Shown: positions 7,211 to 25,648, counted from the first letter of the stretch. The stretch is 36,076 bases of DNA from Prochloron sp. SulCav_FS08_3_32_3330 (GCA_020721205.1 DYNF01000041.1:1-36076); one strand, 5' to 3'. Made by a program: numbers and translations. Notes: a model not told the origin generated them from the sequence alone.

Positions 7211-8380
7211 ATGACTTATACATCTCATAAATATAACTCAAAAACAGAAAATAAAGCTCTAACGAGACCGAAACGAAACACAGAAAATAAGATAGTACAA
7301 TTTTCTGAGGAAGAATTATCTCAATCTGTTTGGGGCAAAGTTGCTTTATTTTTAAATCATAACTACAAAAGATTTATTGATCATCATAGAGAAAAACAAG
7401 CTAAAATTGCCGAAATTCAAAGAGAAGCTATTAATAATTTATGGGATAATCCTGATTTAGATTGGCAAGAATTAATCGAAAAGGTTGAATCTAAAGATCA
7501 AAATTATGCTGAACAATTTTACTCTTATTTATCGGGAAAATTTAAACCTAATCCTCGTCACTTTAAGGAAATATGGCATCAAAATTTAGAAAAGTTTGTC
7601 AATTTATTAGATTATGTATTAGATCAAGATAAACCACAAGATTTATTAAAAATAGATCAATTGGAAAGAATTTTTGAACAATTTAACAATTATTCTGCTA
7701 AAACTTTTTTCGTTTTAAATCAACTTCCTTTATATTTAGATTCAAAAAATGCTGAAATCATTAAAAATTCTCTTGGTTATCAAAAAATTATTGAATATGG
7801 AGATACTCGTTTTCTCAAAGATTTTGGGTTACAATTACAAAAACATTTTCAAATTACAAAAATTGCAATTCAAGAGCAAGTTGCTGAAAATTTAGTACAA
7901 CATTTAGGGGAAACTGAAGCTACTTTACGCAATCAAGTTGAAATTTTACAACAGGATAATCAATTATTAAAAAATGAAATAGAAGTAATAAAAACTAAGG
8001 CATTTCAAGAGGCAACTTTTCAGTTAGGTAAAACTTTACAAAATCAAAGTCAACCTGTTTTAACTCAAATTTTAACTTTAAAAGAAAGATTAGATCAAAC
8101 TTTAGCAGAAAATCAACCTTTATCTAATACTACGGCTTTAACTTGTTTAATTACTTTAGAAGATATTATTAAAGCTTTTCACTGTTTAAATTTAATACCT
8201 TTTCCTAATAATCTTAATCTAAATTTTACCATTACAGGGGAACAATTAGGGGAATATAATTATATTAGTGGCTCTCCTTTTAATCATAATCAAGATTGTA
8301 AACAAGTACGTTGTTTACGTCAAGGTTGGCGTATTAATGAACAAATTATTACCCCTGCTCAAGTAGAAGAAGTTAGTTAG
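7211..8380 (+). CDS. GrpE-like protein, probable partner of the adjacent NYN-Hsp70
   Basis: This 389-residue protein has a mostly helical N-terminal region (about 30-220), a probable coiled coil (about 225-300, rich in Q, E and L) and a short strand-rich end. The last 25 residues (LRQGWRINEQIITPAQVEEV, 369-388) resemble the closing beta domain of GrpE nucleotide-exchange factors, where a gly-tyr-arg turn leads to a PA-x-V strand; GSPFNHNQ (354-361) fits the preceding GrpE loop. Coiled coil followed by this beta end is the GrpE order. The next gene, 80 bases on, encodes an Hsp70, the natural partner of GrpE. The N-terminal 200 residues match nothing I recognise. The GrpE link is inference from motif and context; a plain coiled-coil protein is the alternative. 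Confidence 0.6.
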   Translation: MTYTSHKYNSKTENKALTRPKRNTENKIVQFSEEELSQSVWGKVALFLNHNYKRFIDHHREKQAKIAEIQREAINNLWDNPDLDWQELIEKVESKDQNYAEQFYSYLSGKFKPNPRHFKEIWHQNLEKFVNLLDYVLDQDKPQDLLKIDQLERIFEQFNNYSAKTFFVLNQLPLYLDSKNAEIIKNSLGYQKIIEYGDTRFLKDFGLQLQKHFQITKIAIQEQVAENLVQHLGETEATLRNQVEILQQDNQLLKNEIEVIKTKAFQEATFQLGKTLQNQSQPVLTQILTLKERLDQTLAENQPLSNTTALTCLITLEDIIKAFHCLNLIPFPNNLNLNFTITGEQLGEYNYISGSPFNHNQDCKQVRCLRQGWRINEQIITPAQVEEVS

Positions 8381-8433
8381 TTGTTGTGCTTTAGCACTCA
8401 TAAAATTATGGCGCTAAAGCGCAACAACGAACC
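8381..8433. repeat. Palindromic dispersed repeat (GCGCTTTAGCGC family), copy 1
   Basis: TTGTTGTGCTTTAGCAC (8381-8397) pairs with GCGCTAAAGCGCAACAA (8411-8427), 17 bp with one G-U pair and one mismatch. The reverse complement of 8411-8433 is identical over 23 bases to 26946-26968. It sits in the short gap between the GrpE-like gene and the NYN-Hsp70 gene and could attenuate or process the transcript. Confidence 0.7.
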
Positions 8434-8460
8434 AAGTTTTAAATATTAACATTTTTTATT

Positions 8461-11400
8461 ATGAAAAATATTGCTTTATTACTAGATTTAGATAACATTA
8501 AACCGAACTTAAACGAATTAGAAGAAATTTGTCAACGCTACGGTAAGATTGTGGCACGTCGGGCTTTTTCTAATACTTCTACGGTTTTAACTGCTTATGG
8601 TAGTCGTTTTCGTGAATTGAATTATCGTTTTGAAATTACACCCGCTTTAGATATTGTTAGTCAGGAAGTAGATAATTTAATTTTTAAAACTACAGAAGAA
8701 TTATTACAAAATCCTAGTTTAAATATTCAATTAATCGCCATAGTTAGCAATGATAATGATTATGCAAAATTGTTTACAAAATTGAAAAATAAAGGCATTC
8801 AAACTCTAGCTATTGGTATTGGTAATCAAATGGGAAATAGCTTAAGAGAAACCTCTAATTATGTGGAAATTTTATCGGGTGTAATGCGTCCAATGTATAT
8901 TGGAATTGATTTGGGAACTACTAATACTGTGATGGCTTTAGCATCAGAAAACTTAATGAAACAATGGGTTAGTTCGGTGGTAGAAGTGCCAATCAAAGAT
9001 GAACAATCTGCTTTAATTCAAAGTAATATGATTCCTTCATCTGTTAGATTTATTTCTAATAGTAATACGGAAGTTGGTAGGCACGTTAAAGCTTTAGCTT
9101 ATCCCTATCGAGATCGCACCATTTTAGCATGGAAACATGACATGGGAATTACTAAAAATGGCAATCCTTTTCAATATAATTTAACTATAGGAAATATTGC
9201 CCCAGAAGAAGCGGCTAGTAAGGTTTTAGAGTTTTGTCGTCAAAAATTATTAGAGCGTTATGGCACTATTCAAGGCGCAGTAATAACTCATCCTGCTTGT
9301 TATGAAATAGATGCGATCGAAGCTACTAGAAAAGCGGCGGTTTTAGCGGGTTGGAATGAGGAAGATGTAGTGTTAATTTCTGAACCTCAAGCGGCTTTAT
9401 ATGACTTTTTATATCATTTACAACAGGGGCATCGTTATGTGCCTTTTGAGTTGAATAAACCTGTTAATATTTTAGTTTATGATCTAGGGGGAGGCACTTT
9501 AGATGTTACTTTACATGAGGTGGAATGGGATCATCAAAAAAATCGTTTTATTATTAATGATTTAGCCATTGGATCTAGGACTAGAATAGGGGGAGATATT
9601 ATTGATAATTTAATTAGTGAATATATTTTAAAGAATCATCAAGATTTTGCTAAATTATCAGAAGTTGAAAAGAATAAATTGCGGTATGAATTACCAATTT
9701 ATGCGGAAAAATTTAAAAAAGTTTGGGGTTCTCAATATCAACAAAGTCAAGATAAAACTAATTTTAATTATACTTTTCAAGGTTTATTTCTTGATGCTAA
9801 ATTTCCGATCCGTCATAATATTAATACTGAAAAAATGCAAGAAATTCTTGCTCCTCTTTTTTGTGAGGATTTATCGTTAAATGTTTTAGAGCATTTAGAG
9901 CCTGATCAAGCTTTTAATTTACCGCCTTTTAGCGATCGCCTGAATACGTTGATTGTGCCTGTATTAGAAGTATTATTGAAAGCAAAACAAACTCAAGGCA
10001 TAATCCCTGTAGTGGATGGCATTTTGCTTAATGGAGGAATGACTTATTTTCCTCTGATTAAAGAGAGATTAATTAAATTATTCCCCTCTGTACCGATTTT
10101 AGATGATAGTAATCCTGATCTAGCGGTGGCGAGAGGTGCGTCTTTATATGCGGCGGGAGTTTTAAAATCAAAAGAAACAATTAATCCTACTAATTTATCT
10201 TTAGAAGTAACACAAAATAATCAATTTGCATTAAGAACATTGATCGCACAGGGACAAAAATATCCTTATAAAACGGTTTTATCTGGTTTTAAATTACCAA
10301 AAACAGAGACAGGTTATTTATTATTTAAAATTTGGACTGGTATGGGAAATAAACCTAATATTAATACAAGTTTACAAAGATTACGTCAAGTTTCTGTAGA
10401 TGAAATTTTAGGAAATCAACTATCAGCAGGAAGTTTATTAGATTTAGAAATTGAATATACTTTTGATGAAAGATTATTATTAACTTTAGTAAGTAGAAAT
10501 AATCAAGCTCGTTATAAATTAGAAATTGCTACAGATACTAAAGAATTAATGATAGCAGAGCCTACTATCACTAATTCATCTGTTAAAAATATAAAAAATA
10601 CATTTAATATTAAAAGTATTATTCCCCCGATTAAACGTAGTCGTAAAAATCAAAATTTACCCCTTACATCTACGAAAATTAAAATTGAACAATGGGAAGA
10701 TTTAGCTAATTCTTTAACACAAAATTTTAGTAATAGTCAAGTTCACCAAAAAAAACGAGATTTATTAAAAAATACAGCTTTAGCTTCTAATCGTCTTGAG
10801 ATTGCTAATAATTTAATTAATTGGTTAGAAAAAGAGGAGTTATCATTTTATGAAAAACATCCCTTTAAACTTATATTAGCAGTGAGAGGATTAACTCAAA
10901 TTTTTGAGCGTTGTAATGAGGAAGAAGCTAAAGTTAAAAGTTTAGAAACAATTTATAAGAAATGGATTAAAAATAAATTTCAAGATGATTTATCAGGTGT
11001 TGATCATCATTTATTTCCAGAAATTATTGCAGTTCCGGGTAAATTATTTTGGACAGATTTTCATGAATTATTAATTAATGGTTTTGATCGTTATCAAAAT
11101 CAACCTCGTGCTATAACTTTTCTCAATTCTTTAGGTAAATGTGGCAAAATAGATCAAGAATTATCATTATTATCTTTATTAACCAAAACTATTAAAGAAA
11201 GTTCTCGTTTATCCTATCGAGAAAAAGCTTATTGGGCTTTAGGGCGTTTGATCAGTTTAGGGCAACCTGAAGAATATAGAGTTAATTTTGATATAGTGGA
11301 ATATGTAGCTAATCTTGCCCTTGAAGAATTATTAGAAAAAGTAACAGAACCACAAATTGCTATAACATTAATTAGAACTTTAAGTCAATGTTTAGTCTGG

Positions 11401-11622
11401 CAAACTATGGATTATAATTTTAGTAATGATTTCTTATTTAAAATTAATAATTTACCTAAAATTAACCTTCCTGTTAATCAAAATTTACCAAGATTTCCTC
11501 GCATTTCTATTACTTTTAAAGAACGGTTACAACTGTTACCAAAAATAGTTAATATTCGTGAAGCAACGGAGACAGAAATTAAAGAAATTCAAACATTTTT
11601 AATTGAATCAATTAAAGATTAA
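8461..11622 (+). CDS. NYN (PIN-like nuclease) domain fused to an Hsp70/DnaK-family ATPase
   Basis: This 1053-residue protein begins with an NYN/LabA-type domain (about 1-140): LLLDLDNI carries D9, D11 and N12, and IVSNDNDYAKL carries S96, D98 and D100, the acidic positions expected of a PIN-like RNase fold. An Hsp70 ATPase follows without a gap: phosphate-1 IGIDLGTTNTV (147-157), K225 in the position of the DnaK catalytic Lys, phosphate-2 DLGGGTLDVT (341-350), GGD at 377-379 and adenosine motif LLNGGM (522-527). A beta-rich, substrate-binding-like part (about 575-690) and a long helical tail (to 1053), possibly related to the DUF3731-type Hsp70 extension, complete it. The GrpE-like gene just upstream suggests a dedicated chaperone pair. 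No clear ribosome site is visible. The ATPase looks competent; RNase activity is inference from residues. Confidence 0.88.
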   Translation: MKNIALLLDLDNIKPNLNELEEICQRYGKIVARRAFSNTSTVLTAYGSRFRELNYRFEITPALDIVSQEVDNLIFKTTEELLQNPSLNIQLIAIVSNDNDYAKLFTKLKNKGIQTLAIGIGNQMGNSLRETSNYVEILSGVMRPMYIGIDLGTTNTVMALASENLMKQWVSSVVEVPIKDEQSALIQSNMIPSSVRFISNSNTEVGRHVKALAYPYRDRTILAWKHDMGITKNGNPFQYNLTIGNIAPEEAASKVLEFCRQKLLERYGTIQGAVITHPACYEIDAIEATRKAAVLAGWNEEDVVLISEPQAALYDFLYHLQQGHRYVPFELNKPVNILVYDLGGGTLDVTLHEVEWDHQKNRFIINDLAIGSRTRIGGDIIDNLISEYILKNHQDFAKLSEVEKNKLRYELPIYAEKFKKVWGSQYQQSQDKTNFNYTFQGLFLDAKFPIRHNINTEKMQEILAPLFCEDLSLNVLEHLEPDQAFNLPPFSDRLNTLIVPVLEVLLKAKQTQGIIPVVDGILLNGGMTYFPLIKERLIKLFPSVPILDDSNPDLAVARGASLYAAGVLKSKETINPTNLSLEVTQNNQFALRTLIAQGQKYPYKTVLSGFKLPKTETGYLLFKIWTGMGNKPNINTSLQRLRQVSVDEILGNQLSAGSLLDLEIEYTFDERLLLTLVSRNNQARYKLEIATDTKELMIAEPTITNSSVKNIKNTFNIKSIIPPIKRSRKNQNLPLTSTKIKIEQWEDLANSLTQNFSNSQVHQKKRDLLKNTALASNRLEIANNLINWLEKEELSFYEKHPFKLILAVRGLTQIFERCNEEEAKVKSLETIYKKWIKNKFQDDLSGVDHHLFPEIIAVPGKLFWTDFHELLINGFDRYQNQPRAITFLNSLGKCGKIDQELSLLSLLTKTIKESSRLSYREKAYWALGRLISLGQPEEYRVNFDIVEYVANLALEELLEKVTEPQIAITLIRTLSQCLVWQTMDYNFSNDFLFKINNLPKINLPVNQNLPRFPRISITFKERLQLLPKIVNIREATETEIKEIQTFLIESIKD

Positions 11623-11659: not shown

Positions 11660-11902
11660 TTATAATAAATTCAAGTTTTGTTTAATAACTTCCCAAAAGA
11701 CTTTTTCTTCATTTTCTGGATTATTTTCTGCTTGAATAGCATCTTTTAAATCCAGTAAATCTTCTAATTCCTCTGGATCAATAATAGCTAATTTCCCTTG
11801 ACTAATTTTTTCTAATAATTCATTAACAGATAGATTAAATTGTTTAGCAATATCTTCTATCCCTAATAAAATATTTTGATTAATTGTTAATTGATTCATC
11901 AT
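11660..11902 (-). CDS. Small hypothetical protein, antitoxin-like
   Basis: This 80-residue acidic protein lies opposite to its neighbours. IEDIAKQFNLSVNELLEKISQGKL (16-39) reads as a small helix-turn-helix, and the second half is rich in Asp and Glu (DPEELEDLLDLKDAIQAE). That layout is common among small antitoxins in cyanobacteria, but I do not recognise a named family and no toxin partner lies next to it on the same strand. Two adjacent ATG codons can serve as start (11902 or 11899). Codon use and length make it a likely real gene; function is unknown. Confidence 0.6.
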   Translation of the reverse strand: MMNQLTINQNILLGIEDIAKQFNLSVNELLEKISQGKLAIIDPEELEDLLDLKDAIQAENNPENEEKVFWEVIKQNLNLL

Positions 11903-12167: not shown

Positions 12168-15100
12168 ATGGATCAATCTAATCTAATTAAATTGGCTCAA
12201 CAAGGTGATTCTGAGGCGATCTCGCAACTTTTGAGTCAGAGTTTAAATAAAAACAATATTAGTGTTTCTAAATGTACGCTTAAAGATGATTGTTTACAGT
12301 TGATGTTATCTGCTATGACTGCACCTCCTCAAGAAAAGATAGTTAATTTCCTTCGTCAATGGGTACAAAATTTAAACATTAATTCTGTTAATAAAGTGAA
12401 AGTTTATAGTAAGGAAATAGGTGAGGATTTTCCGGCGTGGCATGAGGAATTTAACCTAGAATTTAAAGCTCAACCTAATCTTCATGAATTGGCTCAAAAA
12501 GGTGATATTGATGCCATTGAAAAGTTAATTATTCAATGGTTAAACTTAAAAGATGTTAAATTAAAAGCTAGTTTAAAAGAGCAAAAATTAAATATTTTAA
12601 TTCTTTTAAATTATGTTCCTAATGCTGATTTTATTGTTAATAAGTTAAAACAGGAACTTATTAACCTGAATATTGAAAATTGTCATGTTGTTAAAGTTTA
12701 TGCTCAAAAAATCGGTGAGGATTTTCCCGAATGGCATCAAGAATTTAAGGTAAAAGTTGAAGAAGTAAGTGAAGAATTAGTCACTAAAACCCAAAATAAT
12801 CCTATTAATCAAGACTTAAATTTAATTAAGGCAGAAACCTCAAATCAATTAACTACTACTGAAAATCAATCAAGTTTATTAAATAAAGCAAAATTAGGTG
12901 ATCTAACAGCGATTGAAGGGGTATTAAATTATTTACTGAAAAGTGATCGAATTTTTGCTAAAGTAAATCTTTCAAATCAATATTTACAAATTACGATAGT
13001 AGGAGAAAGAATACCAGAGCAAGAAAAACAAGTTAAATTAATTACTAATTTTGTTAAGCAATTAAACTTAAATTTTGCTGAAAAATTACAAATAGTTGCT
13101 TGGCGTAAAGGTGGCTCTTTTTGTGCTTGGAGTGAACAAATTAATTTAAAAGCTCCTCCTGATACTAATAATTTATGGAAAGCTATTACTGAAACTGCTT
13201 CAGATGTTGGGAAAGTTGTATCAAGTAAAATGTCAGATTTTCAACAATCAAATGTAGGTAATGAAATTACAAAAACAGCCTCATTTGTAGGAGGAAATCT
13301 TGGTCAAGCGACTCAAGGAGTTGGTCAATTTGTATCAGGTAAAATGTCAGAATTTCAACAATCAAATTCAGTAGATTCTAATTTAGATCGTCAAAATATA
13401 CCTAATACAAATTTAACTAATTATAATAATTCTTCTGAATTACAAAACATTACAAAAAATCATAATCATTATTTACAATATATCAATAAACAAGAAAGAT
13501 ATGCTATTTTAAAAATAATCTTATGGCTATCATTCGCCGATGAAAATTTATCAGAAGAAGAAATTAAAAATATTTTAGAAATTGCTCTTAGTTTTGGTAT
13601 TGAAAATTATAATCCTCAGCAAGAATTAAAAAATTTACCTAAAGAAATTAATCCTATTCTTCAGTATCTATCTTCTCATGAATCTAAACAATATTTATTA
13701 AAATTATTAGTTCATTTTTGTTTCTGTGATGGTGAATATTCTGCTAGTGAAAGATTAGCTTTATATGAAATTGCGATCGGTTTAGGTGAATCAGAAAATC
13801 TTGTCGCTGAAGTAGAAAGTGAGTATATTAAACAAGTTTCTATTGTGTTACAAAGTAATCCACAATTATTATCAAATATCAATCATCAGACAATACAGCC
13901 AAAACAAGATATAAATGATGGGAAAGCTTTAAAGGTTGCTGGAATAGTTGCTGGGGGTGCTTTAGCTGTTGGTATTACAGGAGGAATGGCAATTCCTGTT
14001 ATTGGTGGAATTATTGGAACTACACTTTTTGGATTAACTGGTGCGGCGGCTACTTCCTCTGGGTTGGCGGCTATTGCCGGAGGCTCTTTAGCGGCAGGAG
14101 GTTTAGGTACGGCAGGAGGCTCTGCTATTATTACAACAATTGCTAGTTTAGGTGGTGCTGGTCAGGCATTAAAATCAGGTTTAAATTTATATGGAGATTT
14201 AGAAGAATTTAACTTTATTCCTATTAGTCCTAATCGTTATGCTTGTCATCGTTTAATTTGTATTCATGGATTTTTACAACAAGGGAAATCTCCTCAAGAA
14301 GAATGGAGAGCAGTGATAAACTATGATCATCAAAGTGATCTTTGGAGTTTAAGTTGGGAATCAAAAACTTTACTAGATTTTGGAAATACTTTGTTTAATA
14401 TAGGTTCAAAATTTACAACAAGTGGATTAATGGGATTTATCGGTAAAAGTGCATTAAAAAACGCAGGAGGTTTATTAGCACTTCCAGCTACAGCATTATC
14501 CGCTTTAAAAATAATAGATAACCCTTGGTTTGTAGCTAAAAATAGAGCCGAAAAAACAGGTAAAGTTTTAGGAGAAGCGATCGCACAATTGCCTTATCCT
14601 GTATCTTTATTAGGTTATTCTTTAGGTAGTCGAGTCATCGCTTATGCCCTTGAATATCTACAAAAAGAAGGTCATTATGGTAAAGTTTTTGATGTTTATT
14701 TAATGGCAGGTGCAGTAAGCAAAAAACATTACACTTTTAGTAGTGTTGATTTAGATTCAGTTGTCGTTAATAATATCTTTAATTGTTATTCTCAATTTGA
14801 TGAAGTTTTATCTTATGTTTATCGCACGGCAGAATTAGGTGATGAACCGATTGGCTTAAGTCCAATTAATCATCAAAAAGTAACTAATTTAGATGTATCA
14901 AATATTTCTCCTCATCATGGAGATTATCCGAATAAACTAGATCAAATATTAGAATTATGTCGTCAAGAAACACCACCAACTCAATTTAAAAATCGAAGTA
15001 AAAAAACAAAAGTAAAATTAAATGATGCGATTAAAGTAATTGAAATATTAAAGACAGTACCCGGAATAACTAAAGCGGATCCTAGAGATTTTCCTAGAGC

Positions 15101-15287
15101 AAAACCTTATGTATTGTTACCAGATGGTTCAATTTTAAAAACATGGACTAATCCGGCAGGAGTATGGCACGTTTTTATGGGTGATCCTAATGATAATATG
15201 ATCTTTGGTGGTTATGTTGGTTGGATTCATACTGATGGATTAAAACGAATATTAGAAAGAATTTATCAAGAATATAAACCTTATTAA
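12168..15287 (+). CDS. Three-repeat / TerB-like / DUF726 alpha-beta hydrolase fusion
   Basis: This 1039-residue multidomain protein starts with three related repeats (about 5-98, 104-200, 240-333), each opening with A-x-x-GD-x-x-AI and closing with a K-V-x-x-(W/Y) strand; the first two share GEDFP-x-WH-x-EF. A TerB-like helical domain follows (about 435-560) with the acidic pairs FADENLSEEE and FCDGEYSASE, typical metal-sensing positions. A Gly/Ala-rich hydrophobic stretch (587-660) should insert in a membrane. The hydrolase part has IHGF, nucleophile elbow GYSLG (S818), D878 and H916/H917, matching the DUF726 (TMCO4-like) fold and triad order. The last 90 residues are an unrecognised domain. 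AAGGAG lies 7 bases before the ATG. It may be a membrane-bound lipase or esterase gated by the TerB part; substrate is unknown. Confidence 0.85.
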   Translation: MDQSNLIKLAQQGDSEAISQLLSQSLNKNNISVSKCTLKDDCLQLMLSAMTAPPQEKIVNFLRQWVQNLNINSVNKVKVYSKEIGEDFPAWHEEFNLEFKAQPNLHELAQKGDIDAIEKLIIQWLNLKDVKLKASLKEQKLNILILLNYVPNADFIVNKLKQELINLNIENCHVVKVYAQKIGEDFPEWHQEFKVKVEEVSEELVTKTQNNPINQDLNLIKAETSNQLTTTENQSSLLNKAKLGDLTAIEGVLNYLLKSDRIFAKVNLSNQYLQITIVGERIPEQEKQVKLITNFVKQLNLNFAEKLQIVAWRKGGSFCAWSEQINLKAPPDTNNLWKAITETASDVGKVVSSKMSDFQQSNVGNEITKTASFVGGNLGQATQGVGQFVSGKMSEFQQSNSVDSNLDRQNIPNTNLTNYNNSSELQNITKNHNHYLQYINKQERYAILKIILWLSFADENLSEEEIKNILEIALSFGIENYNPQQELKNLPKEINPILQYLSSHESKQYLLKLLVHFCFCDGEYSASERLALYEIAIGLGESENLVAEVESEYIKQVSIVLQSNPQLLSNINHQTIQPKQDINDGKALKVAGIVAGGALAVGITGGMAIPVIGGIIGTTLFGLTGAAATSSGLAAIAGGSLAAGGLGTAGGSAIITTIASLGGAGQALKSGLNLYGDLEEFNFIPISPNRYACHRLICIHGFLQQGKSPQEEWRAVINYDHQSDLWSLSWESKTLLDFGNTLFNIGSKFTTSGLMGFIGKSALKNAGGLLALPATALSALKIIDNPWFVAKNRAEKTGKVLGEAIAQLPYPVSLLGYSLGSRVIAYALEYLQKEGHYGKVFDVYLMAGAVSKKHYTFSSVDLDSVVVNNIFNCYSQFDEVLSYVYRTAELGDEPIGLSPINHQKVTNLDVSNISPHHGDYPNKLDQILELCRQETPPTQFKNRSKKTKVKLNDAIKVIEILKTVPGITKADPRDFPRAKPYVLLPDGSILKTWTNPAGVWHVFMGDPNDNMIFGGYVGWIHTDGLKRILERIYQEYKPY

Positions 15288-15444: not shown

Positions 15445-15756
15445 TTAACTATTAACCAAAAATGATGGTAATTTTTCTCTTAAAATTGACATTAATTTTA
15501 CTTCCGCATCTTGATCAGTGGGGCAAATAGCTCTGATTCCGGTTAATTTTTCTACTAATTCCACTCCAGCCTGATTATTTGTCACAATTCCTCCGATCAA
15601 ATCGGGAATGAGATGAAAAGTATTAATTACTCCTAATACTCCATAAGGATCACTGGCACATAAAACGGTTAAACAAATTTGTGCCTCAATTTTTTCTAAT
15701 ACAAAAGTTTTACGTTGCCTAAGTTTTTCGAGGCAACAACCCCATACCTTGACTAT
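15445..15756 (-). pseudogene. 5'-truncated gene fragment
   Basis: On the minus strand a frame without any plausible start reads about 103 residues to a stop at 15445. It contains protein-like sequence such as VLCASDPYGVLGVINTFHL, IGGIVTNNQAGVELVEKLTG and a final LMSILREKLPSFLVNS. The frame is closed by a stop at 15757-15759, a few bases from the dispersed repeat at 15764-15809, so the 5' part was probably lost at that junction. A short inverted repeat (GTTGCCT 15714-15720, AGGCAAC 15731-15737) lies inside. I do not recognise the family. It is the main content of the 15288-16190 gap. Confidence 0.6.
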
Positions 15757-15763
15757 TTATTTT

Positions 15764-16583: not shown

Positions 16584-17918
16584 ATGAATCAACCTTTATT
16601 TGTTAAAATTACGCCTCATCGAGAATTTTTACCCGCAGATACGGCGGATCAACGCTTATTTATGATGTTGAAATTACGCCCTTCTCATGATATCGCCGGA
16701 AGTCGCCCCTCGACTACTTTTGTCTTTATTATTGATACCAGTGGCTCTATGTATGAGATTGTGGAGGCGGGGAAATCGAAAATTGATATTGTGATTGAAT
16801 CCCTTTCGGGTCTAGTTAAATCGGGACGTTTAACTCAGAGCGATCGCATTGCTATTATTCAATTTGATAATCAGGCTTCTACCTTAATCGGACTTACTCC
16901 GGCGACGGAAATCAGTCAATTACAGACTGCAATCTCCCGTTTAAAAGAGTTTAGCGGAGGAACTTGTATGGGTAGAGGAATGAATGAGGCTTTAACTCTC
17001 TTGAAAAATCAAACTATGACCAGTAGAAGGGCTTTAATTTTTACTGATGGGGCTACTTTTGATGAGTTTGAATGTCGAGAATTTGCTCAGGAATTTGCCA
17101 AAAATGGCATCCCTATAACGGCGTTGGGAGTAGGAGATTATGAGGAAGATTTACTAACTTATCTGAGTGATAATACAGGGGGAAACTGTTTTAATGTGGT
17201 TGAAAATAGTCAAAATGTAGTAGGTCAAAATGTTCCTATTCATCAATTACCTCAGACTATTTTTGAACAAGCTCAACAAGCTCAACAAGAGGTAATTAAT
17301 AATCTTAAATTAAATGTGAGGACTGTGCAGGGGGTAGAATTAGTGAGGGTTACGAGGGTTTATCCAGATCAAGCGGATTTTCCCCTAACTCAGCTACCTT
17401 ATCCCATCGGAGTGGCAATGGCAAATGATGAAACCATTTTTGTTTTAGAGTTTTCTGTGGATAGTCGTGCTGGATCAAGGGTGCGGATCGCTCAACTCGG
17501 TTTAACTTATGATATTCCCGGACAAAACCGCACGGGAGAATTACCGCCTCAAAATGTGGTAATTCAATTTGTCGTAGGTGGAGGGGCGGCTCAGGTGGAT
17601 CAGGAAGTTATGGGTTATGTGCAACAGCGAAATATTGCTCAATTGGTAGGAGATGCTACGAAAGTGGCTGAAAGTAATCCTCAACAGGCGGAAAAACTTT
17701 TAGAAACGGCTAAACGGTTAACGGTGAAAATTGGTAATCAAGCGATGTTAGAATCTCTAAATAGCGCCCATAATGAGTTACGCAAAACCCAAAAAATTTC
17801 CGCAGAAACTCGTAAAACAGTGAAAATGGGAGCTAAAGGTAAAACCGTAAAAATGGAGGGAGGGGATATTAATTCTCAACTTTCTGAGGAACAAATCCGA
17901 AAATTATCGGGAACTTAG
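16584..17918 (+). CDS. vWA domain protein with duplicated KTVKM tail
   Basis: This 444-residue cytoplasmic protein has a von Willebrand A domain (about 44-220) with a complete metal-ion-dependent adhesion site: DTSGSM (51-56), the Thr in SGGTCMG and the Asp of FTDGA. Such domains bind protein partners through a divalent cation. A beta-rich middle and a helical segment follow. The C-terminus carries KTVKM twice (411-415 and 420-424), each Thr set among basic residues, which suits phosphorylation and then FHA binding. The genes that follow encode FHA proteins, a PP2C phosphatase and Ser/Thr kinases, so this is probably the scaffold or switch of that set, comparable to TerY. There is no signal peptide. 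A long hairpin closes the gene. Confidence 0.9.
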   Translation: MNQPLFVKITPHREFLPADTADQRLFMMLKLRPSHDIAGSRPSTTFVFIIDTSGSMYEIVEAGKSKIDIVIESLSGLVKSGRLTQSDRIAIIQFDNQASTLIGLTPATEISQLQTAISRLKEFSGGTCMGRGMNEALTLLKNQTMTSRRALIFTDGATFDEFECREFAQEFAKNGIPITALGVGDYEEDLLTYLSDNTGGNCFNVVENSQNVVGQNVPIHQLPQTIFEQAQQAQQEVINNLKLNVRTVQGVELVRVTRVYPDQADFPLTQLPYPIGVAMANDETIFVLEFSVDSRAGSRVRIAQLGLTYDIPGQNRTGELPPQNVVIQFVVGGGAAQVDQEVMGYVQQRNIAQLVGDATKVAESNPQQAEKLLETAKRLTVKIGNQAMLESLNSAHNELRKTQKISAETRKTVKMGAKGKTVKMEGGDINSQLSEEQIRKLSGT

Positions 17919-18110: not shown

Positions 18111-18833
18111 ATGAGTATTTGTACGGTTTGTGGTTATGATAAAAACCCTGATGGATCAGAGTTTTGTGATGCTTGTGGGGCAGAATTGACTGTTTCTAGT
18201 GGAAATTCCAATCCACCAATCTATCAAGCACCTGTGAATCAATCTTTTTCGATCGAGCCGACGGTGGTGACAACACCGCCTCCAATGCAATCACAGCCCA
18301 CGATTCAGTCTTTTGCCCCTGAGCCAATACCGATCGCCCCTGAGCCAATGCCGATCGCCCCGCCTCCACCGATCGAGCCTGTAAATCAGTCTTTTACACC
18401 TCCAGCCCCCATTCCTCAAACTATTTCGAGTCCGCCTCCCGTCTTCAATTCCGAGGCTTTTTCAGAGTCTCATCGCCCGATTCCGATTCCCGTAGCTGAG
18501 GCAACAACGGCAAAATTAATCGCTAAACAACCGAATGCTCCGATTCCTGAGTTTCCTCTGGAAAGTAGTAATATTATTGGTATTTTTAATGAAGAGCCTG
18601 TAGAAATTGATTTAGAAGGGTTTTATGGCAATGAAACTGTTTCTAGTCAACACGCTGAAATTTATCAGGATAATGGTTTCTGGATGATTAAAGACCTCGG
18701 CTCTACCAATGGTATTTTTATTAAGCCTGTTGGTCAAAGTCGTTTTGGGGCAAGGGTTACAGTGCCAACTATTTTAAATTCTGGAGATGAAATTGCAATC
18801 GCAAAAATTCGTTTTCAGTTTCAATCTTTTTAA
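18111..18833 (+). CDS. Zinc-ribbon, Pro-rich linker, FHA domain protein
   Basis: This 240-residue protein starts with a zinc ribbon (C4, C7, C19, C22), continues with a long Pro-rich linker with repeated APEP/PIAP words (about 35-130), and ends in an FHA domain (about 145-240). FHA domains read phosphothreonine. Here the VSSQHAEI and DLGSTNGIFI motifs are present, but the Arg normally following the first Gly (IGR) is replaced (IIGIFNEEP), so phospho-binding may be weakened or altered. AAAGGA stands about 10 bases before the ATG. It is flanked on both sides by GTCGGGGATTT palindromes, as if it were its own transcription unit within the kinase-phosphatase set. Confidence 0.88.
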   Translation: MSICTVCGYDKNPDGSEFCDACGAELTVSSGNSNPPIYQAPVNQSFSIEPTVVTTPPPMQSQPTIQSFAPEPIPIAPEPMPIAPPPPIEPVNQSFTPPAPIPQTISSPPPVFNSEAFSESHRPIPIPVAEATTAKLIAKQPNAPIPEFPLESSNIIGIFNEEPVEIDLEGFYGNETVSSQHAEIYQDNGFWMIKDLGSTNGIFIKPVGQSRFGARVTVPTILNSGDEIAIAKIRFQFQSF

Positions 18834-18983: not shown

Positions 18984-20891
18984 ATGAAAAATACAGAATC
19001 TCAATTAATTATTCAAGAAAAAGAGTGCTTAGAAATTGAAAATTTTACTCTTGAAATTGTGTCTTATTTAGGTTTATTAACCAGTGATGTTCATTATTTT
19101 AAAGTTAATTTTAAAAATAATGAGCATCAGGATCATAAATTTGGTTTATTAAGAGTTGGCTCAATTAATGGAAGTTTGAAAAGAGAATTAGAATTGAGAG
19201 AAATTCTCAAGGATTATCAAATGATTCCTCATATTTTAGCTCAAAATATTGAAAAATCTGTGATCATTAATCCGCCTTTTTTGGAAAATAAACAGGATAT
19301 TAATGAGTCTAAAACAGAACTTATTACAGAAGACTTACCAGAAAACTCAAATAAATTTGAGAAGATTGAAAATGAAATAACTTTAATTGAAGAAACAGAA
19401 GAAATTAAGCATGAATTAACTCTTGAAACAGAAAAGATAGAAGAAACTTTACTAGAAAATCAAGAAGATTTATTAGAAAATAATAATAATGAAATTATGG
19501 CAGAAATTAAAGTTGAGAATGGGGAAAAAACTGATTATTTAGAAGAAGAAACTTATCCAGAAGAAGATATTACAAATGATACATCCACCGAAAAATTACT
19601 TTTATTAACAGATTTTCCCGACGAAGAAACCAGTTTAGCTACTTGGTTAAAACAAGAACATTCCTCGGAAGAATATTTGGCAATAACCACTCAAATTTGT
19701 CAATTTTTCAACTATCTTTATCAAAAAGATTGGTGTTATATTAACTTAATTCCCGAATTGATTACGATTAGTAAACCTTTAAAATTTTATGATTTAACTA
19801 GCGCCTATTCTCTCAATATTTCCTTAACTTCTGGTTTAATCGGGTCTTATATTGCCCCAGAATTATCATCAAGTCAAGGGGTTAATGAATTAATGAGTAG
19901 TTATACAATCGGAACATTTCTTTATCAATGTTTTCATCAAAAATTACCTCTAATTGATCCAATAATGGGGATCGAAATTAATCCCATTCCTCGCCTTTAT
20001 CAAATGTTAAAAATTAGTCTTTCTCCCGTAGCAGAAGAAAGATTTACTTTAGCTCAATTTTTAAGTTTGTTAGTAGAAACTAGAAAGAGTTTTAATAATA
20101 TTAATATTAACTGGAATATTGCTAGTAAATCAACGGTGGGACTTTCTCCTTATCGTCTTCAAAATGAAGATAATTATGGCATCAGACAAGAACAATTTTG
20201 TAATTTACAAAATTTAATTATGGGGATTGTTGCTGATGGTATGGGGGGTATGGCAAAGGGAGAAATAGCCAGTAAAATTGCAGTAGAAACTGCTTTAAAA
20301 GAGCCAATTCCTGATAATTTAATTAAAGATGAAGACTGGAATAATTGGTTAATTAATTTAGTCGAAAAAGCGAATCAAAATATTACGAAAAATGTGCAAA
20401 ATGGTGGCACAACTTTAAGTTTAGTTTTAGGAATTAATGATAAATTAATGATCGCTCATGTGGGGGATAGTCGCATTTATTTATTAAGAGAAAATGAGCT
20501 TAAACAATTGAGTGAAGATCATTCTTATGTGGCTATTTTAGTGGCAAGTGGACAAATTACCCAAGAAGAAAGTTTAAGCCATCCCGATCGCAATATTTTA
20601 ACTAAATCTTTGGGGACAAAAAACCGTTTAAGTCAGGGGTATGTCCAAAATTTAACTCGCACGATTGAGAATTTATTTTTAACATTAAAAAATGATGATA
20701 TTCTATTACTTTGTTCCGATGGAGTATGGGATTTAATTCCTAACAATGAATTTATAGAAATCTTTAATAACTGTGAAAATTTACAAGGAGGTGTAGATGA
20801 AACAATCAATAAAATTATTGAAAGGGGGGCGGGAGATAATGCTACACTTGTAGCGTTAAAATGTCAAATTTTATCGAATAAAAATCTTTAA
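18984..20891 (+). CDS. Pseudokinase-PP2C phosphatase fusion
   Basis: This 635-residue protein ends in a PP2C-type metal-dependent Ser/Thr phosphatase (about 380-635) with all metal and phosphate motifs: QNED (D396), DGMGG (418-422), GGTT, HVGDSR, CSDG (D579) and GAGDN (D618). In front is a degenerate kinase C-lobe (about 215-370): a catalytic-loop position reads CYINLIPE instead of HRDLKPEN, the DFG position reads YDLTS, but an APE motif (IAPEL) remains, so it cannot be an active kinase. Residues 100-215 are a Glu-rich, low-complexity linker. It should remove phosphate from targets of the neighbouring kinase, with the pseudokinase giving control or docking. No membrane segment or clear ribosome site is seen. 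Confidence 0.88.
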   Translation: MKNTESQLIIQEKECLEIENFTLEIVSYLGLLTSDVHYFKVNFKNNEHQDHKFGLLRVGSINGSLKRELELREILKDYQMIPHILAQNIEKSVIINPPFLENKQDINESKTELITEDLPENSNKFEKIENEITLIEETEEIKHELTLETEKIEETLLENQEDLLENNNNEIMAEIKVENGEKTDYLEEETYPEEDITNDTSTEKLLLLTDFPDEETSLATWLKQEHSSEEYLAITTQICQFFNYLYQKDWCYINLIPELITISKPLKFYDLTSAYSLNISLTSGLIGSYIAPELSSSQGVNELMSSYTIGTFLYQCFHQKLPLIDPIMGIEINPIPRLYQMLKISLSPVAEERFTLAQFLSLLVETRKSFNNININWNIASKSTVGLSPYRLQNEDNYGIRQEQFCNLQNLIMGIVADGMGGMAKGEIASKIAVETALKEPIPDNLIKDEDWNNWLINLVEKANQNITKNVQNGGTTLSLVLGINDKLMIAHVGDSRIYLLRENELKQLSEDHSYVAILVASGQITQEESLSHPDRNILTKSLGTKNRLSQGYVQNLTRTIENLFLTLKNDDILLLCSDGVWDLIPNNEFIEIFNNCENLQGGVDETINKIIERGAGDNATLVALKCQILSNKNL

Positions 20892-20901
20892 ATTAAAATA
20901 A

Positions 20902-21088: not shown

Positions 21089-21115
21089 CCTCAAAAAAAA
21101 AAAGGAATTTTAATT

Positions 21116-24019
21116 ATGATTAATCAACTATTAAAAAGTCGTTATCAAATTATTAATAAATTAAGTGAAAAGGGCGGTTTTGGTATTACCTATATTGCCC
21201 AAGATTTACAAACAAAAATTGATTGTGTTGTTAAAGAATTACGATTTCAATATAATGATCATGATAAAGCCAAAGAATTATTTGAAAGAGAAGCAAAATC
21301 TTTACAAATATTAGGTATTCATGATCAAATTCCCACATTTATAGATTATTTTCATGAAAATCAACAATTTTATTTAGTACAAGAATTTATTGATGGTTTT
21401 CCCCTAACTGATGAACTGGATCAGGGTAATATTTTTAATGAAAATCAAGTCATTCAATTATTACAAAATATTTTAGAACCGTTAACATTTGTACATCAAA
21501 AACAAATCATTCATCGGGATCTTAAACCGGATAATTTAATCAGAAGAAAAAAAGACAATAAAATAGTTTTAATTGACTTTGGGGCGGTGAAAAAAATTGC
21601 CACTCAAATGGGTTTTCACCCCGCTACTCAAATCTACACGAAAGGTTATGCTCCCAGTGAACAATACATCGGAAATCCTCAATATAGTAGCGATATTTAT
21701 GCTTTAGGTGTCATTGCTATTCAAGCATTAACTGGTGTGCCAAAGATTGATTCTATCATAGATGAAAATACGAATCAAATTATCTGGAAAAATCAAGTTA
21801 AGATCAGTCAAGAATTAGCTAATATTTTAGATAAAATGATCCAAGATAATTGGCAAAATCGTTATCAAAATGCTAATGAAGTTTTACAAGTATTAAAACC
21901 TTTAATTTCTCCCCCCGTTGAATGTCCCGCTTGTTTAGCAGAAAATCCTCCTAATTCTGCTTATTGTTTAATCTGTGGTTATACTTTATCTATTCCTAAT
22001 CCTTCCCCCATATCAACTCATCATTTAAAACCTAATACTTTATTAAAACAAGGCACTTATAAAATAGAAAAAACTTTAGGAGAAGGAGGTTTTGGGATTA
22101 CTTATCAAGGAATTTATACCCCTAATAATGCTGTAATTGCGATTAAAGAATTATTCCCCGAAAAATCAGCAAGACAAGGTAATTCTATAATGTGGGCTAA
22201 CTCTATTTCTCCTCAAGAAAAACAACAACAAATTTATAAATTTAAACTAGAAGCTTCTAATCAACAAAAGTGTAATCATCCTAATATTCCGAAAGTTTAT
22301 GATTGGTTTGATGAAAATAATACTGTTTATATTGTGATGGAATTTATTACGGGTAAATCTCTTTTTCAAATTCTACAAACGGAAGGAATTTTAGCAGAAG
22401 AACGGGTTAAAAAATATTCTATTCAAGTTACTGAAGCTTTAATAATAATCCATAAAAATAATTTTTTACATCGAGATATTAAACCGGATAATATTATTAT
22501 TAATCACCAAGATCAAGCGGTTTTAATTGATTTTGGAGCGGCAAAAGAATTTATAGCTGGACAAACTCGTTTAATGACACAAATTTTAACCAAAGGTTAC
22601 GCACCTTTAGAACAATATAGTGAGAAAAGTAAGCGTTTTCCAGCCACAGATATTTATGCTTTATGTGCTTCTATGTATGAGTTATTAACGGGGGAATTAC
22701 CCGCCGAAGCTACGGATAGAATGCAAGGATTATTACAAGGATCTGATACTTTAATTCCACCTCGACAAATTAACCCGAAAATTAGTCCTTTCATGGAAAA
22801 AGTTATCCTCATAGGCATGAAAATTAATGTTAGTGAAAGATGGCAAACTGCGAAAAAATTAAATCAGACTTTAAGAGATAGAAGGATTATTGATCCTGCT
22901 CATGAAAAAGCGAGAGAATATGTTAAAAATAATCAATTAGTGGAGGCGATTCAAGCTTATGAAAGTTGTATAATTAATGATCCTAATAATGGCGAAATTG
23001 CTTTAGAATTAGCTTTAGTACAAATTCATCTTAATCATAATAAAGCCGAAATTTATGCCGAAAAAGCGATTGATCTTAATCCTCAAGATGGACGAGGTTA
23101 TGGTGTTTTAGGATTAGTAAAATGTCGTCAAGAAAAATGGCAAGAAGCGGTTACTTTTTTAGAAAAAGCGGTTAGTTTATCCCCTCAAGAAGTGTGGATT
23201 AATGCTAATTTTGCTTGGGCATTAGGTAAAATTAATAATTGGCAAAAAGCAGAAACTATTATTGATAAAACATTACAAATTGATCAGAATTGTACTTTTG
23301 CATTAGGAGTAAAATCATGGATTGCGGTGAATCAAAAACAATGGCAAATTGCGGTAGGATCAGCGACTAAAACAATTTTACTTTGTCAACAAAATCCATT
23401 AAATGATCATCAAGAAATTCAAAAATGGGTTTATCCTCATCTTGTTTTTGCTTTTGATCAATCTCCAAAAATTAATCAAAATACTCAAAATATTGAACAA
23501 AAACGCTTAGAAGAATTTATTAAATATTTTCCTCAAGAACCTTTTGCTTGGGGTTTTAAAGCTTGGAAACAGGCAAAAGAAGGTTTATATAATGAAGCTG
23601 TTACCTGTTTTAATCAGATAATTAATCAACCTAATATTGATGATTGGATCTTAATTAATTATGGTATAATACAGGAATATCTTAATAATATTCAAGGGGC
23701 AATTTCTCTTTATGAAAAAGTTAATCAAAATGCTTTTAGTTTATTTCGTTTAGGTACTTTATCCGGGAGGTTAGGACAATGGCAAAATGCTAAAAATTAT
23801 TTAGAAAAAGCAATCAAATTACAACCAAATTATGCAGAAGCTTGTCATAATTTAGGTTGGGTTTTATTGAATATTAAAACATCTGATGGTACAATTGAAT
23901 ATCATCAAGATTTATGGACAAATTATCGTCAAGCTGTGGATTTTTATAGTCAAAAAAATCAAATAAATTTTGTGCAAAATATTAAACAAAGTTTTCAATC
24001 AGCAGGTTTGACAATTTAA
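21116..24019 (+). CDS. Double Ser/Thr protein kinase with zinc ribbon and TPRs
   Basis: This 967-residue protein holds two complete Hanks-type kinase domains. The first (about 10-262) has KGGFGITY, K40, HRDLKPDN (D135) and DFG (D154); the second (about 312-580) has GEGGFGITY, K344, HRDIKPDN (D454) and DFG (D472). Between them is a zinc ribbon (C270, C273, C284, C287). About 350 residues of TPR-like helices follow (from 600). All catalytic residues are present in both, so both should phosphorylate Ser/Thr. No membrane segment is seen, so it acts in the cytoplasm. The PP2C gene upstream and FHA genes on both sides make a writer-eraser-reader set. The preceding AAAAAAAGGA gives a ribosome site about 8 bases from the ATG. 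Confidence 0.93.
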   Translation: MINQLLKSRYQIINKLSEKGGFGITYIAQDLQTKIDCVVKELRFQYNDHDKAKELFEREAKSLQILGIHDQIPTFIDYFHENQQFYLVQEFIDGFPLTDELDQGNIFNENQVIQLLQNILEPLTFVHQKQIIHRDLKPDNLIRRKKDNKIVLIDFGAVKKIATQMGFHPATQIYTKGYAPSEQYIGNPQYSSDIYALGVIAIQALTGVPKIDSIIDENTNQIIWKNQVKISQELANILDKMIQDNWQNRYQNANEVLQVLKPLISPPVECPACLAENPPNSAYCLICGYTLSIPNPSPISTHHLKPNTLLKQGTYKIEKTLGEGGFGITYQGIYTPNNAVIAIKELFPEKSARQGNSIMWANSISPQEKQQQIYKFKLEASNQQKCNHPNIPKVYDWFDENNTVYIVMEFITGKSLFQILQTEGILAEERVKKYSIQVTEALIIIHKNNFLHRDIKPDNIIINHQDQAVLIDFGAAKEFIAGQTRLMTQILTKGYAPLEQYSEKSKRFPATDIYALCASMYELLTGELPAEATDRMQGLLQGSDTLIPPRQINPKISPFMEKVILIGMKINVSERWQTAKKLNQTLRDRRIIDPAHEKAREYVKNNQLVEAIQAYESCIINDPNNGEIALELALVQIHLNHNKAEIYAEKAIDLNPQDGRGYGVLGLVKCRQEKWQEAVTFLEKAVSLSPQEVWINANFAWALGKINNWQKAETIIDKTLQIDQNCTFALGVKSWIAVNQKQWQIAVGSATKTILLCQQNPLNDHQEIQKWVYPHLVFAFDQSPKINQNTQNIEQKRLEEFIKYFPQEPFAWGFKAWKQAKEGLYNEAVTCFNQIINQPNIDDWILINYGIIQEYLNNIQGAISLYEKVNQNAFSLFRLGTLSGRLGQWQNAKNYLEKAIKLQPNYAEACHNLGWVLLNIKTSDGTIEYHQDLWTNYRQAVDFYSQKNQINFVQNIKQSFQSAGLTI

Positions 24020-24167: not shown

Positions 24168-24992
24168 ATGATTAGTTGTCCGAATTGTCAACATCAAAAT
24201 CCTGATGGTGCTACCCAGTGTGAAGCCTGTTACACCCCTTTACCTGTGGAAAGTAGTTGTCCTAACTGTGGCGCACCGATTCAAAGTAATGCTACTTTTT
24301 GCGGTCAATGTGGCTTTAATATACCCGGTGCTGATCTTGGAGAATCTACTCCTGTAGAGCCTGATTCTAATGCCATTCCGCCCACGATCGCCTTGAGAGA
24401 ACCTGAGCCTGTGGTTGCCTATACGCCCCCCGTAGAAATCGAAGCAGAGCCTGAGCCTGTGATTGCCTATACACCCCCCGTAGAAATCGAAGCAGAGCCT
24501 GTGGTTGCCTATACACCCCCCGTAGAAATCGAAGCAGAACCTGAGCCTGTGGTTGCCTATACGCCCCCGGTAATGCCTTCACCGATTCCTGAACCTGAGC
24601 CGATCACTTTAGCGGAAATAAATCAGCCTCCAGTGGCGACTGGAGGGGCAACTAGGCTACAAATACAAACGGCGAGTTTATTTCATGTCCAAACAGGCAC
24701 AAAACTTGAACTTCAACAAAATTTATCCGTTATTCATATTGGCAAACCGAATGAGCAAATTCCCCCAGATATAGATGTTTCAGGCTTTCCTAACTCGGAA
24801 ATTGTGTCGAGAGTTCATTCTGACATTAGAGTCGAAGGAGATTCCTTCTTTATTGAGGATGTGGGTAGCTCTAACGGTACTTATGTCAATCACACACCTT
24901 TATTAGAAGGGAATCGTCATCGTTTACGTCCGGGCGATCGCATCGCTTTAGGCAAAGGAGATAAAATGACCTTTATTTTCCAAATGTCTTAA
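24168..24992 (+). CDS. Double zinc-ribbon, EPxxAYTPP-repeat, FHA protein
   Basis: This 274-residue protein begins with two zinc ribbons (C4/C7/C18/C21 and C31/C34/C45/C48), then four repeats built on AYTPPV-EIEAEPEPV (about 80-140), then an FHA domain (about 185-274). The FHA part keeps SRVH and DVGSSNGTYVN, but the first motif reads IHIGKPNE, with Lys where Arg normally contacts phosphate. The downstream paralogue at 25082 has the same substitution, so this is a stable family feature rather than a recent loss. It is probably a reader of phosphothreonine made by the kinase just upstream. AAGGAAA lies about 10 bases before the ATG. Confidence 0.9.
   Translation: MISCPNCQHQNPDGATQCEACYTPLPVESSCPNCGAPIQSNATFCGQCGFNIPGADLGESTPVEPDSNAIPPTIALREPEPVVAYTPPVEIEAEPEPVIAYTPPVEIEAEPVVAYTPPVEIEAEPEPVVAYTPPVMPSPIPEPEPITLAEINQPPVATGGATRLQIQTASLFHVQTGTKLELQQNLSVIHIGKPNEQIPPDIDVSGFPNSEIVSRVHSDIRVEGDSFFIEDVGSSNGTYVNHTPLLEGNRHRLRPGDRIALGKGDKMTFIFQMS
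24400..24575 (+). repeat. In-frame coding repeats, 42/48-bp units
   Basis: GCCTATAC-CCCCCCGTAGAA units repeat four times inside the FHA gene with spacings of 48, 42 and 48 bases, the difference being one Glu-Pro pair. Near-identity at DNA level shows recent expansion, so unit number probably varies between strains. Confidence 0.8.
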
Positions 24993-25000
24993 TCCACAGA

Positions 25001-25028
25001 AAACTAGGTTTCCTTAGAAACCTAGTTT
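25001..25028. terminator. Hairpin between tandem FHA genes
   Basis: AAACTAGGTTTC (25001-25012) pairs perfectly with GAAACCTAGTTT (25017-25028), 12 bp with a 4-base loop, 9 bases after the first FHA stop. A weak T tract follows. It probably ends or trims the upstream transcript. Confidence 0.6.
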
Positions 25029-25081
25029 AAAAATTTGATTTGAGCCAACAATCATTTTCAATTAAACAAAATTTTAAAATC

Positions 25082-25648
25082 ATGATAAATTGTCCTGTTT
25101 GTGAGCATCAAAATCCTGATAATGCTACTCATTGCGAAGCTTGTTTGACTCCTCTGTCCCTAGCTCCGGTGATTAGTGCTAATTGTCCTCAATGTGGCAC
25201 TCCAACTCCCCCAGAGGGAACTTTTTGTAGTCAATGCGGATTTCCTCTTAAAACAGAGGAAAACAAGAATATTCCTCAAGAAACAAAAGAAATTAACCAG
25301 AAAATAACTCCGTTACCAATACAAACAGTGAGCTTATTTCATGAGCAAACTAGCACAAAACTTGAAATTAACCCTGATTTATTAATAATTCATATCGGAA
25401 AACCAAATGAGCATATCCCCCCGGATATAGATGTTTCAGCTTTTCCTAACTCAGAAATTGTTTCTAGGAGCCATGCTGATCTGAAAATAGAAGGAGAATC
25501 TTATTTGATTGAAGATGTCGGTAGTGCCAATGGCACTTATATCAATAATCTACCCTTATCAAAAGGGGATCGTCATCTTTTGCGATCGGGCGATCGCATC
25601 GCTTTAGGAAAAGATAATAAAATGACCTTTATTTTTCAAATGTCTTAA
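25082..25648 (+). CDS. Double zinc-ribbon FHA protein, paralogue of the upstream gene
   Basis: This protein of 188 residues is a shorter duplicate of the preceding gene. It has two zinc ribbons (C4/C7/C18/C21, C35/C38/C49/C52), a short linker in place of the Pro-rich repeats, and an FHA domain with HIGKPNE, SRSH and DVGSANGTYIN. I choose ATG 25082 because it aligns exactly with the paralogue start (MI-x-CP-x-C); the frame stays open to a TTG at 25040, which is less likely. No strong ribosome site is seen. The two proteins may compete for the same phosphorylated partner or bind different ones through the different linkers. Confidence 0.85.
   Translation: MINCPVCEHQNPDNATHCEACLTPLSLAPVISANCPQCGTPTPPEGTFCSQCGFPLKTEENKNIPQETKEINQKITPLPIQTVSLFHEQTSTKLEINPDLLIIHIGKPNEHIPPDIDVSAFPNSEIVSRSHADLKIEGESYLIEDVGSANGTYINNLPLSKGDRHLLRSGDRIALGKDNKMTFIFQMS

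Follow-up and report, generated by a model that had tools for sequence, protein, structure and literature searches.

A conserved GrpE-like/NYN-Hsp70 gene pair next to a vWA-FHA-PP2C-kinase cluster in a Prochloron contig

The DNA analysed here, called the window, is a stretch of 36,076 nucleotides from Prochloron sp. SulCav_FS08_3_32_3330 (GCA_020721205.1, DYNF01000041.1:1-36076). It is a cyanobacterial contig, with psaA and psaB at positions 743-5475. A first-pass annotation had described the block at 7211-25648 as a single phospho-controlled chaperone-nuclease system, and the open reading frames (ORFs) of the block are found at the coordinates given there. The block begins with two neighboring genes, which encode a GrpE-like protein and a fusion of an NYN domain, an Hsp70 and an α-solenoid:

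7211..8380, plus strand: GrpE-like protein, 389 amino acids, identified by its AlphaFold model, Foldseek, VIA, Pfam GrpE matches in its family, and its gene neighborhood
8461..11622, plus strand: NYN RNase-Hsp70 fusion, 1053 amino acids, identified by Pfam HSP70 and NYN and by its fold match to DnaK

These genes constitute a real and well supported two-gene module. The GrpE-like gene is located directly upstream of the NYN-Hsp70 gene, on the same strand, in all 22 distinct genomes (22/22) obtained by pooling the carriers among 292 cyanobacterial genomes with those from a scan of 84,980 species genomes. Profile searches detected the GrpE-like protein in nine of the 292 cyanobacterial genomes, the window's own among them, and the C-terminal domain of NYN-Hsp70 in the same nine and, as one broken relic, in genome G006. 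By chance, such an overlap would have a probability of about 3e-17 for independent genomes; the genomes compared here are not fully independent. Full-length NYN-Hsp70 orthologs are present in three of the 59 same-order relatives (60 genomes were listed, including the window's own). None of five other Hsp70 genes examined has a neighbor from this GrpE-like family. The coupling of chaperone and nuclease proposed earlier is thus borne out in the form of a conserved pairing.

In the species genomes, 17 loci were detected, distributed over 16 genomes. Cultured carriers include Anabaenopsis elenkinii. Three carriers are not cyanobacteria: a Burkholderiales metagenome-assembled genome (MAG), a UBP9 MAG and an unassigned bacterial MAG. 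The guanine-cytosine content of these three MAG contigs is 64-68 %, compared to 32 % in the window, and cyanobacterial contamination is therefore unlikely. The neighborhoods of the pair vary among carriers and include housekeeping genes, e.g. those for arginyl-tRNA synthetase and PGK. Since the surroundings differ from carrier to carrier, the pair itself is the unit. PADLOC matches near the pair are scattered. No full-length copy of NYN-Hsp70 was found on the phages and plasmids of the collections searched; the viral contigs contain no relatives, and the similarity seen in phage records is partial and limited to generic Hsp70. Among the open-access papers searched, none combines 'NYN domain' with Hsp70 and GrpE, and the papers found to mention NYN together with Hsp70 or DnaK do not appear to concern the NYN-Hsp70 protein. 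Within that literature the module is undescribed.

Several loci are duplicated or damaged. Hormoscilla GM7CHS1pb carries two GrpE-like/NYN-Hsp70 copies on one contig (L035 and L036), one of which is cut short, and in Hormoscilla SP12CHS1 (L037) the genes are fragmented. What remains in G006 (L097, C159:7009-7200) is a broken C-terminal domain of NYN-Hsp70; this genome has the vWA cluster elsewhere.

The GrpE-like protein has the fold expected of GrpE, namely a long helix (residues 217-277), a bundle with two further helices and a C-terminal β domain, preceded by an extra N-terminal helical domain (residues ~30-200). The AlphaFold model has a predicted local distance difference test (pLDDT) value of 84.7. 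Its nine top Foldseek matches are all GrpE or GrpEL1, and VIA aligns it to 3a6m_A with a Z-score of 8.0 over 163 residues. Pfam GrpE was matched in 12 of the 16 family members, with a best value of 6.9e-11. Two observations count against the assignment: the Pfam scan of the window's own protein gave no GrpE match, and Foldseek reaches no better than a modest E-value of 3.5e-3. At the level of the family, the GrpE label is correct, as the Pfam and Foldseek matches together bear out. On its upstream side the gene is adjoined by one of two UPF0175/DUF3368 (antitoxin/PIN-like) pairs of the window, located at 6298-7033; the other is at 33071-33821.

The fusion consists of an NYN domain (residues 1-140), an Hsp70 nucleotide-binding domain (NBD, 144-568), the β part of the Hsp70 substrate-binding domain (SBD-β, 569-690) and an α-solenoid (717-1053), which replaces the SBD-α lid. 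In the predicted structure (pLDDT 84.5), residues 144-693 fit residues 2-505 of DnaK, i.e. its NBD and SBD-β, with a Z-score of about 31, and residues 717-1053 form α-helical repeats where DnaK carries its lid. With the full-length fusion as query, the VIA and Foldseek lists are taken up by Hsp70 and speak to the Hsp70 part only. Pfam HSP70 matches with 96.7 bits. The TIGR02350 DnaK equivalog scores 88.9 bits against a cutoff of 822.55, and the protein is therefore not a canonical DnaK. Six DnaK-type catalytic residues, equated on the basis of known motifs with DnaK D8, K70, E171, D194, T199 and D201, are invariant in 17 homologs.

The Pfam score of the NYN domain is 22.7 bits in the full-length fusion, compared to a cutoff of 24.2, and 28.4 bits when the domain is scanned alone; it was matched in all 16 of the family members. 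The NYN profile found nothing meaningful among the PDB sequences. The HSP70 score, the NYN score of the lone domain and its recurrence throughout the family confirm the fusion that the first-pass annotation had reported. The domain has the conserved acidic residues of NYN domains. D71 and D98 are invariant across the 17 homologs, and D9 and D11 are intact in 16 of them, the exception being L036, the start of which is set too late. D100 is Gly in five of the 17, and because of this replacement the activity may vary between homologs. The same replacement, along with the weak NYN match of the window protein, could mean that NYN serves as a non-catalytic RNA-binding tag of an Hsp70 localized to RNA. 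Considering the invariance of D71 and D98 and the near-complete retention of D9 and D11, this explanation is quite improbable.

The remainder of the block is composed of the following features:

11660..11902, minus strand: ORF of 80 amino acids between the NYN-Hsp70 and TerB-DUF726 genes, with no confident Pfam family
12168..15287, plus strand: TerB-like (sub-threshold) and DUF726 α/β-hydrolase gene with N-terminal repeats, a separate unit (Pfam)
15704..15814, no strand: dispersed repeat, similar copies of which occur at other places in the genome
16062..16457, plus strand: conserved small gene, part of the vWA cluster and apparently starting with ATT, found by tblastn with the relatives' proteins
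16584..17918, plus strand: vWA protein (Pfam VWA, 69.8 bits; orthologs in relatives)
18111..18833, plus strand: FHA1, a zinc ribbon-FHA protein (Pfam FHA; lies in the vWA-PP2C interval of the relatives' clusters)
18984..20891, plus strand: PP2C phosphatase whose N-terminal part includes a weak kinase-like segment (Pfam PP2C, 55.9 bits)
21116..24019, plus strand: kinase-zinc ribbon-kinase-TPR protein (Pfam; related kinases in the relatives' clusters)
24168..24992, plus strand: FHA2, a double zinc ribbon-FHA protein (Pfam)
25040..25648, plus strand: FHA3, a double zinc ribbon-FHA protein and tandem duplicate of FHA2 (Pfam; 300-nucleotide direct repeat)

The domain content listed earlier is largely recovered by Pfam (Hsp70, DUF726, vWA, PP2C, two kinases and three zinc-ribbon FHA proteins), with TerB remaining below threshold. 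Most of the genes lie on the plus strand as had been stated, but the minus-strand ORF at 11660-11902 breaks the run.

The second half of the block, from the small gene to FHA3, is a separate unit of its own. Orthologs of PP2C occur in 13 of the 59 relatives and those of the vWA protein in nine of the 59, with 57-67 % identity. The order small gene (~127 amino acids)-vWA-FHA1-PP2C-kinase recurs in 14 regions from 12 genomes. Here, too, FHA1 is located between vWA and PP2C, and related kinases adjoin vWA/PP2C in most clusters. The cluster varies: there can be an extra kinase-FHA gene or inserted genes, the PP2C gene of G006 is on a different contig, and vWA is not in the cluster of G057, G035 and G044. 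Upstream of the cluster, the relatives examined have ARC6-IMS, β-lactamase-like or further vWA proteins. FHA2 and FHA3 were not seen as separate genes in any of the 14 regions; in the window they are a tandem duplication in which the 300-nucleotide direct repeat is 77 % identical. The kinase-like segment of the PP2C protein scores 24.5 bits with Pkinase, which is below the cutoff.

The small gene at the start of the cluster lies at the edge of what had been called a decayed patch (15.3-16.2 kb) and escapes ordinary ORF calling. The small-gene proteins of nine relatives match positions 16062-16457 in tblastn over nearly their whole length, with E-values of 1e-23 to 1e-35. The frame 16059-16457 is open and has no ATG, GTG or TTG at its start; the window has ATT where the relatives have ATG/Met, and GGAGG is present upstream. 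The patch contains an intact conserved gene, and pure decay is therefore rejected. The block is nonetheless interrupted here by the dispersed repeat at 15704-15814. This repeat has as many as six other copies in the genome, with 81-95 % identity, and is possibly a remnant of an insertion element. The palindromic repeats reported earlier are present as well. FHA1 is flanked by a 21-nucleotide inverted repeat (17974-17994 and 18850-18870) with 100 % complementarity, and a second inverted repeat of 24 nucleotides and 92 % surrounds it within 17915-18928.

The vWA, PP2C and zinc-ribbon kinase genes had been equated with the TerY-P triad. A PP2C is present and a kinase is followed by a zinc ribbon, although this CPxC...CxxC ribbon lies after kinase 1, between the two kinases of one protein. 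The vWA protein is not TerY by profile: PADLOC TerY aligns to it with 18.5 bits over 36 residues (profile positions 10-44 of 277), and membership of the second half in TerY-P is rejected for this reason. The cluster differs further from the triad in its FHA proteins, second kinase, TPR and conserved small gene, and in being unlinked to the chaperone pair.

The gene at 12168-15287 encodes a DUF726 protein (Pfam, 179.6 bits) with a GYSLG motif. The TerB match reaches 21.4 bits against a cutoff of 24.4. No full-length relative of the protein was found in the 59 relatives, in which its N-terminal repeat and its C-terminal segment recur separately.

The proposal of a single phospho-controlled chaperone-nuclease system, in which the whole 18 kb would extend the TerY-P triad, draws on the adjacency of the genes, mostly on the same strand. 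In addition, some of the GAP1-N2 GTPase conflict systems include HSP70 and GrpE genes, and kinase/PP2C/vWA genes form a separate theme of such systems (PMC7159879). The linkage data do not agree with the proposal. No homologs of vWA, PP2C or DUF726 lie beside the NYN-Hsp70 pair in the 21 other genomes within the flanks searched (up to 10 kb or more per side, less where a contig breaks off). In the window, the distance from NYN-Hsp70 to the downstream start of vWA is 5.0 kb and to that of PP2C 7.4 kb, both inside such flanks where the contig allows. Conversely, neither the NYN-Hsp70 nor the GrpE-like gene is present in the 14 regions fetched from the 12 genomes with a PP2C/vWA cluster. Among the 59 relatives, the three NYN-Hsp70 carriers and the nine vWA carriers are disjoint (0/59 have both). 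About 0.45 shared genomes are expected by chance, so this shows a lack of association rather than avoidance. G057 has both NYN-Hsp70 and a PP2C-kinase pair, but they are 2.8 Mb apart. In the window itself, the opposite-strand ORF and the repeat-bearing gap break the block.

A few observations weigh on the other side. The flanks extend for ~10 kb in many loci and less far where a contig stops. In G040 a generic FHA protein is encoded on the other strand ~3 kb downstream of the pair, and L025 and L038 have generic Ser/Thr kinases in its vicinity. On balance, the linkage and co-occurrence data are against the composite system, which is extremely improbable and is rejected. No conserved neighborhood of the two halves was found in related genomes, and the whole is thereby refuted on the terms set by the first-pass annotation itself. 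Control of the chaperone-nuclease pair by the vWA/PP2C/kinase genes is not supported by co-occurring neighbors or shared carriers, nor is membership of TerB-DUF726, as no DUF726 homolog was found in the flanks searched in the 21 other genomes. It is very probable that the block consists of at least three independent neighboring units, one of them the two-gene module. Unit (i) is the chaperone-RNase module of the GrpE-like and NYN-Hsp70-solenoid proteins (7211-11622), unit (ii) the lone TerB/DUF726 hydrolase gene (12168-15287) and unit (iii) the cyanobacterial vWA-FHA-PP2C-kinase cluster (16062-25648). Splitting the module from the vWA/PP2C cluster averts the description of a false composite system.

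The module resembles DnaK and GrpE in the folds of both partners and in the ATPase residues. It is unlike them in having an N-terminal NYN domain, in the absence of an SBD-α lid and in the extra N-terminal helical domain on GrpE. This analogy suggests, tentatively, a mechanism in which an ATP-cycled chaperone gates an RNase. The Hsp70 part would bind and hydrolyse ATP and capture a client, either an exposed peptide or a ribonucleoprotein, via SBD-β and/or the solenoid. The adjacent GrpE-fold protein would act as the dedicated nucleotide-exchange factor of this Hsp70, as GrpE does for DnaK. The ATP cycle might then present or withhold the N-terminal NYN domain, such that RNA near the captured client would be cut, for example on stalled ribosomes or on infection-derived complexes. 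The exchange activity, the RNase activity, the client and the trigger are what we infer here. Taken as a whole, the statement that the block is made of at least three side-by-side units, the first of them an ATP-cycled chaperone gating an RNase, is rather probable.

Two kinds of trigger can be considered, and the patchiness of the module favors phage infection, whereas its genomic setting favors protein stress. If the module is an RNA-targeting defense system, the Hsp70-solenoid would bind viral or aberrant RNA, NYN would cut it in an anti-phage or suicidal response, and GrpE would reset Hsp70. A parallel in domain plan is found in Type III CoCoNuTs, of which Type III-C occurs primarily in Cyanobacteriota. 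In their CnuD and CnuCD proteins an Hsp70 NBD/SBD is joined to HEAT-like repeats, and RNases are encoded in these systems too (PMC11090510). CnuD, like NYN-Hsp70, has an Hsp70 NBD/SBD followed by helical repeats. However, CoCoNuTs are based on a McrB-like GTPase, whereas the module has no GTPase and carries NYN in the same chain. RNA binding has been proposed for CnuD, but its Walker A-like motifs are degenerate and poor ATP hydrolysis is predicted for it (PMC11090510), while the ATPase residues of NYN-Hsp70 are invariant. A dedicated GrpE-like gene lies beside NYN-Hsp70, and GrpE is not mentioned in the main text of the CoCoNuT paper (PMC11090510). No Pfam family of the McrB-like GTPase or McrC homolog expected in a Type III CoCoNuT operon was found among the window ORFs scanned.

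The GAP1-N2 systems are similar in that an HSP70 and GrpE gene pair is coupled to a conflict module (PMC7159879). They differ from the locus described here, in which no GTPase, FNIII or DnaJ component was found and the putative effector is fused to Hsp70. Pfam detected no GTPase among the scanned window ORFs, GAP1-N2's own profile not being used. Both groups of systems lend some credit to a role in defense, as do the restriction to nine of 292 genomes, the G006 relic, the two copies on one Hormoscilla contig, the occurrence in unrelated phyla and the related plasmid operons described below. Against it stand the many housekeeping neighbors with no clear enrichment of defense genes, the absence of a PADLOC family and the lack of full-length copies on phages and plasmids in the collections searched. 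A defense role on these grounds is doubtful.

Alternatively, the module could serve stress or translation quality control, the chaperone clearing an aggregated or stalled ribonucleoprotein and degrading its RNA, with no part in conflict. The intact ATPase residues and SBD-β, together with the housekeeping neighborhoods, are consistent with such a role. There is a partial precedent in sacsin, in which chaperone modules are combined with HEPN and which is hypothesized to act at both the protein and the RNA level (PMC3710099). It is similar to NYN-Hsp70 in that a chaperone and a predicted RNase-type domain share one chain (PMC3710099), but it is a human protein and its modules are Hsp90-like and DnaJ, with HEPN. 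The rarity of the module would be unusual for machinery of this kind, and quality control as its sole function is unlikely.

Should the gating mechanism hold, the Hsp70 ATP cycle would be built into an RNase and supplied with a dedicated exchange factor, tying the sensing of protein state directly to the destruction of RNA. The role of the chaperone in the complex CoCoNuT and GTPase-centered systems is only inferred, and the module would offer a simple two-gene system for testing what chaperones do in bacterial RNA-targeting systems.

The closest Hsp70s found outside the family are on plasmids. The best relative in plasmid records is from a Priestia megaterium plasmid (NZ_CP032530.1), in which the gene row (L098, 4669-11526) is β-CASP metallo-hydrolase, coiled-coil protein, Hsp70 and HEAT protein. 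A Klebsiella grimontii plasmid (CP079755.1; L099, 6359-13968) has the same order. Its hydrolase is of the metallo-β-lactamase fold according to the record annotation, its Hsp70 is split in two ORFs, and its hypothetical protein shares 33 % identity with the HEAT protein of Priestia. The NYN-Hsp70 profile gives the two plasmid Hsp70s 206 and 147 bits, the latter being the split gene, and all other Hsp70s tested 88 bits or less. The operons thus have parts comparable to those of the module: a nuclease-like hydrolase, an Hsp70, a helical-repeat protein and perhaps a GrpE. They differ in that the genes are separate, a metallo-β-lactamase fold replaces NYN, and homology of the GrpE and solenoid parts is not established.

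Several points weaken the relationship. The grouping of NYN-Hsp70 with the plasmid proteins has modest support (86/78) in the broader Hsp70 tree; the smaller tree has three groups only, and the NYN-plasmid split there is uninformative on sisterhood. The last 90 residues of the coiled-coil protein match the GrpE-like family weakly in hhalign (probability 42 %, E-value 2.7e-4), and the HEAT proteins gave no profile match to the fusion solenoid. PADLOC found nothing convincing on the operons, the coiled-coil protein has no relatives in viral contigs or phage records, and the Klebsiella locus was not matched in E. coli genomes. A wider class that includes the plasmid operons is therefore a lead and not a result. 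Such a class of ATP-gated chaperone-RNase machines, which we put forward with reserve, would have a helical-repeat Hsp70 and its own GrpE controlling a nuclease that can be exchanged: in cyanobacteria and certain other bacteria NYN, fused to the Hsp70, and on the Priestia and Klebsiella plasmids a metallo-β-lactamase/β-CASP enzyme encoded by a separate gene. Its members would sense a protein or ribonucleoprotein client and destroy the attached RNA.

Outside the block, the window also contains NTP_transf_2 and DUF5615 genes on the minus strand at 29140-29915, which are possibly toxin-antitoxin-like.

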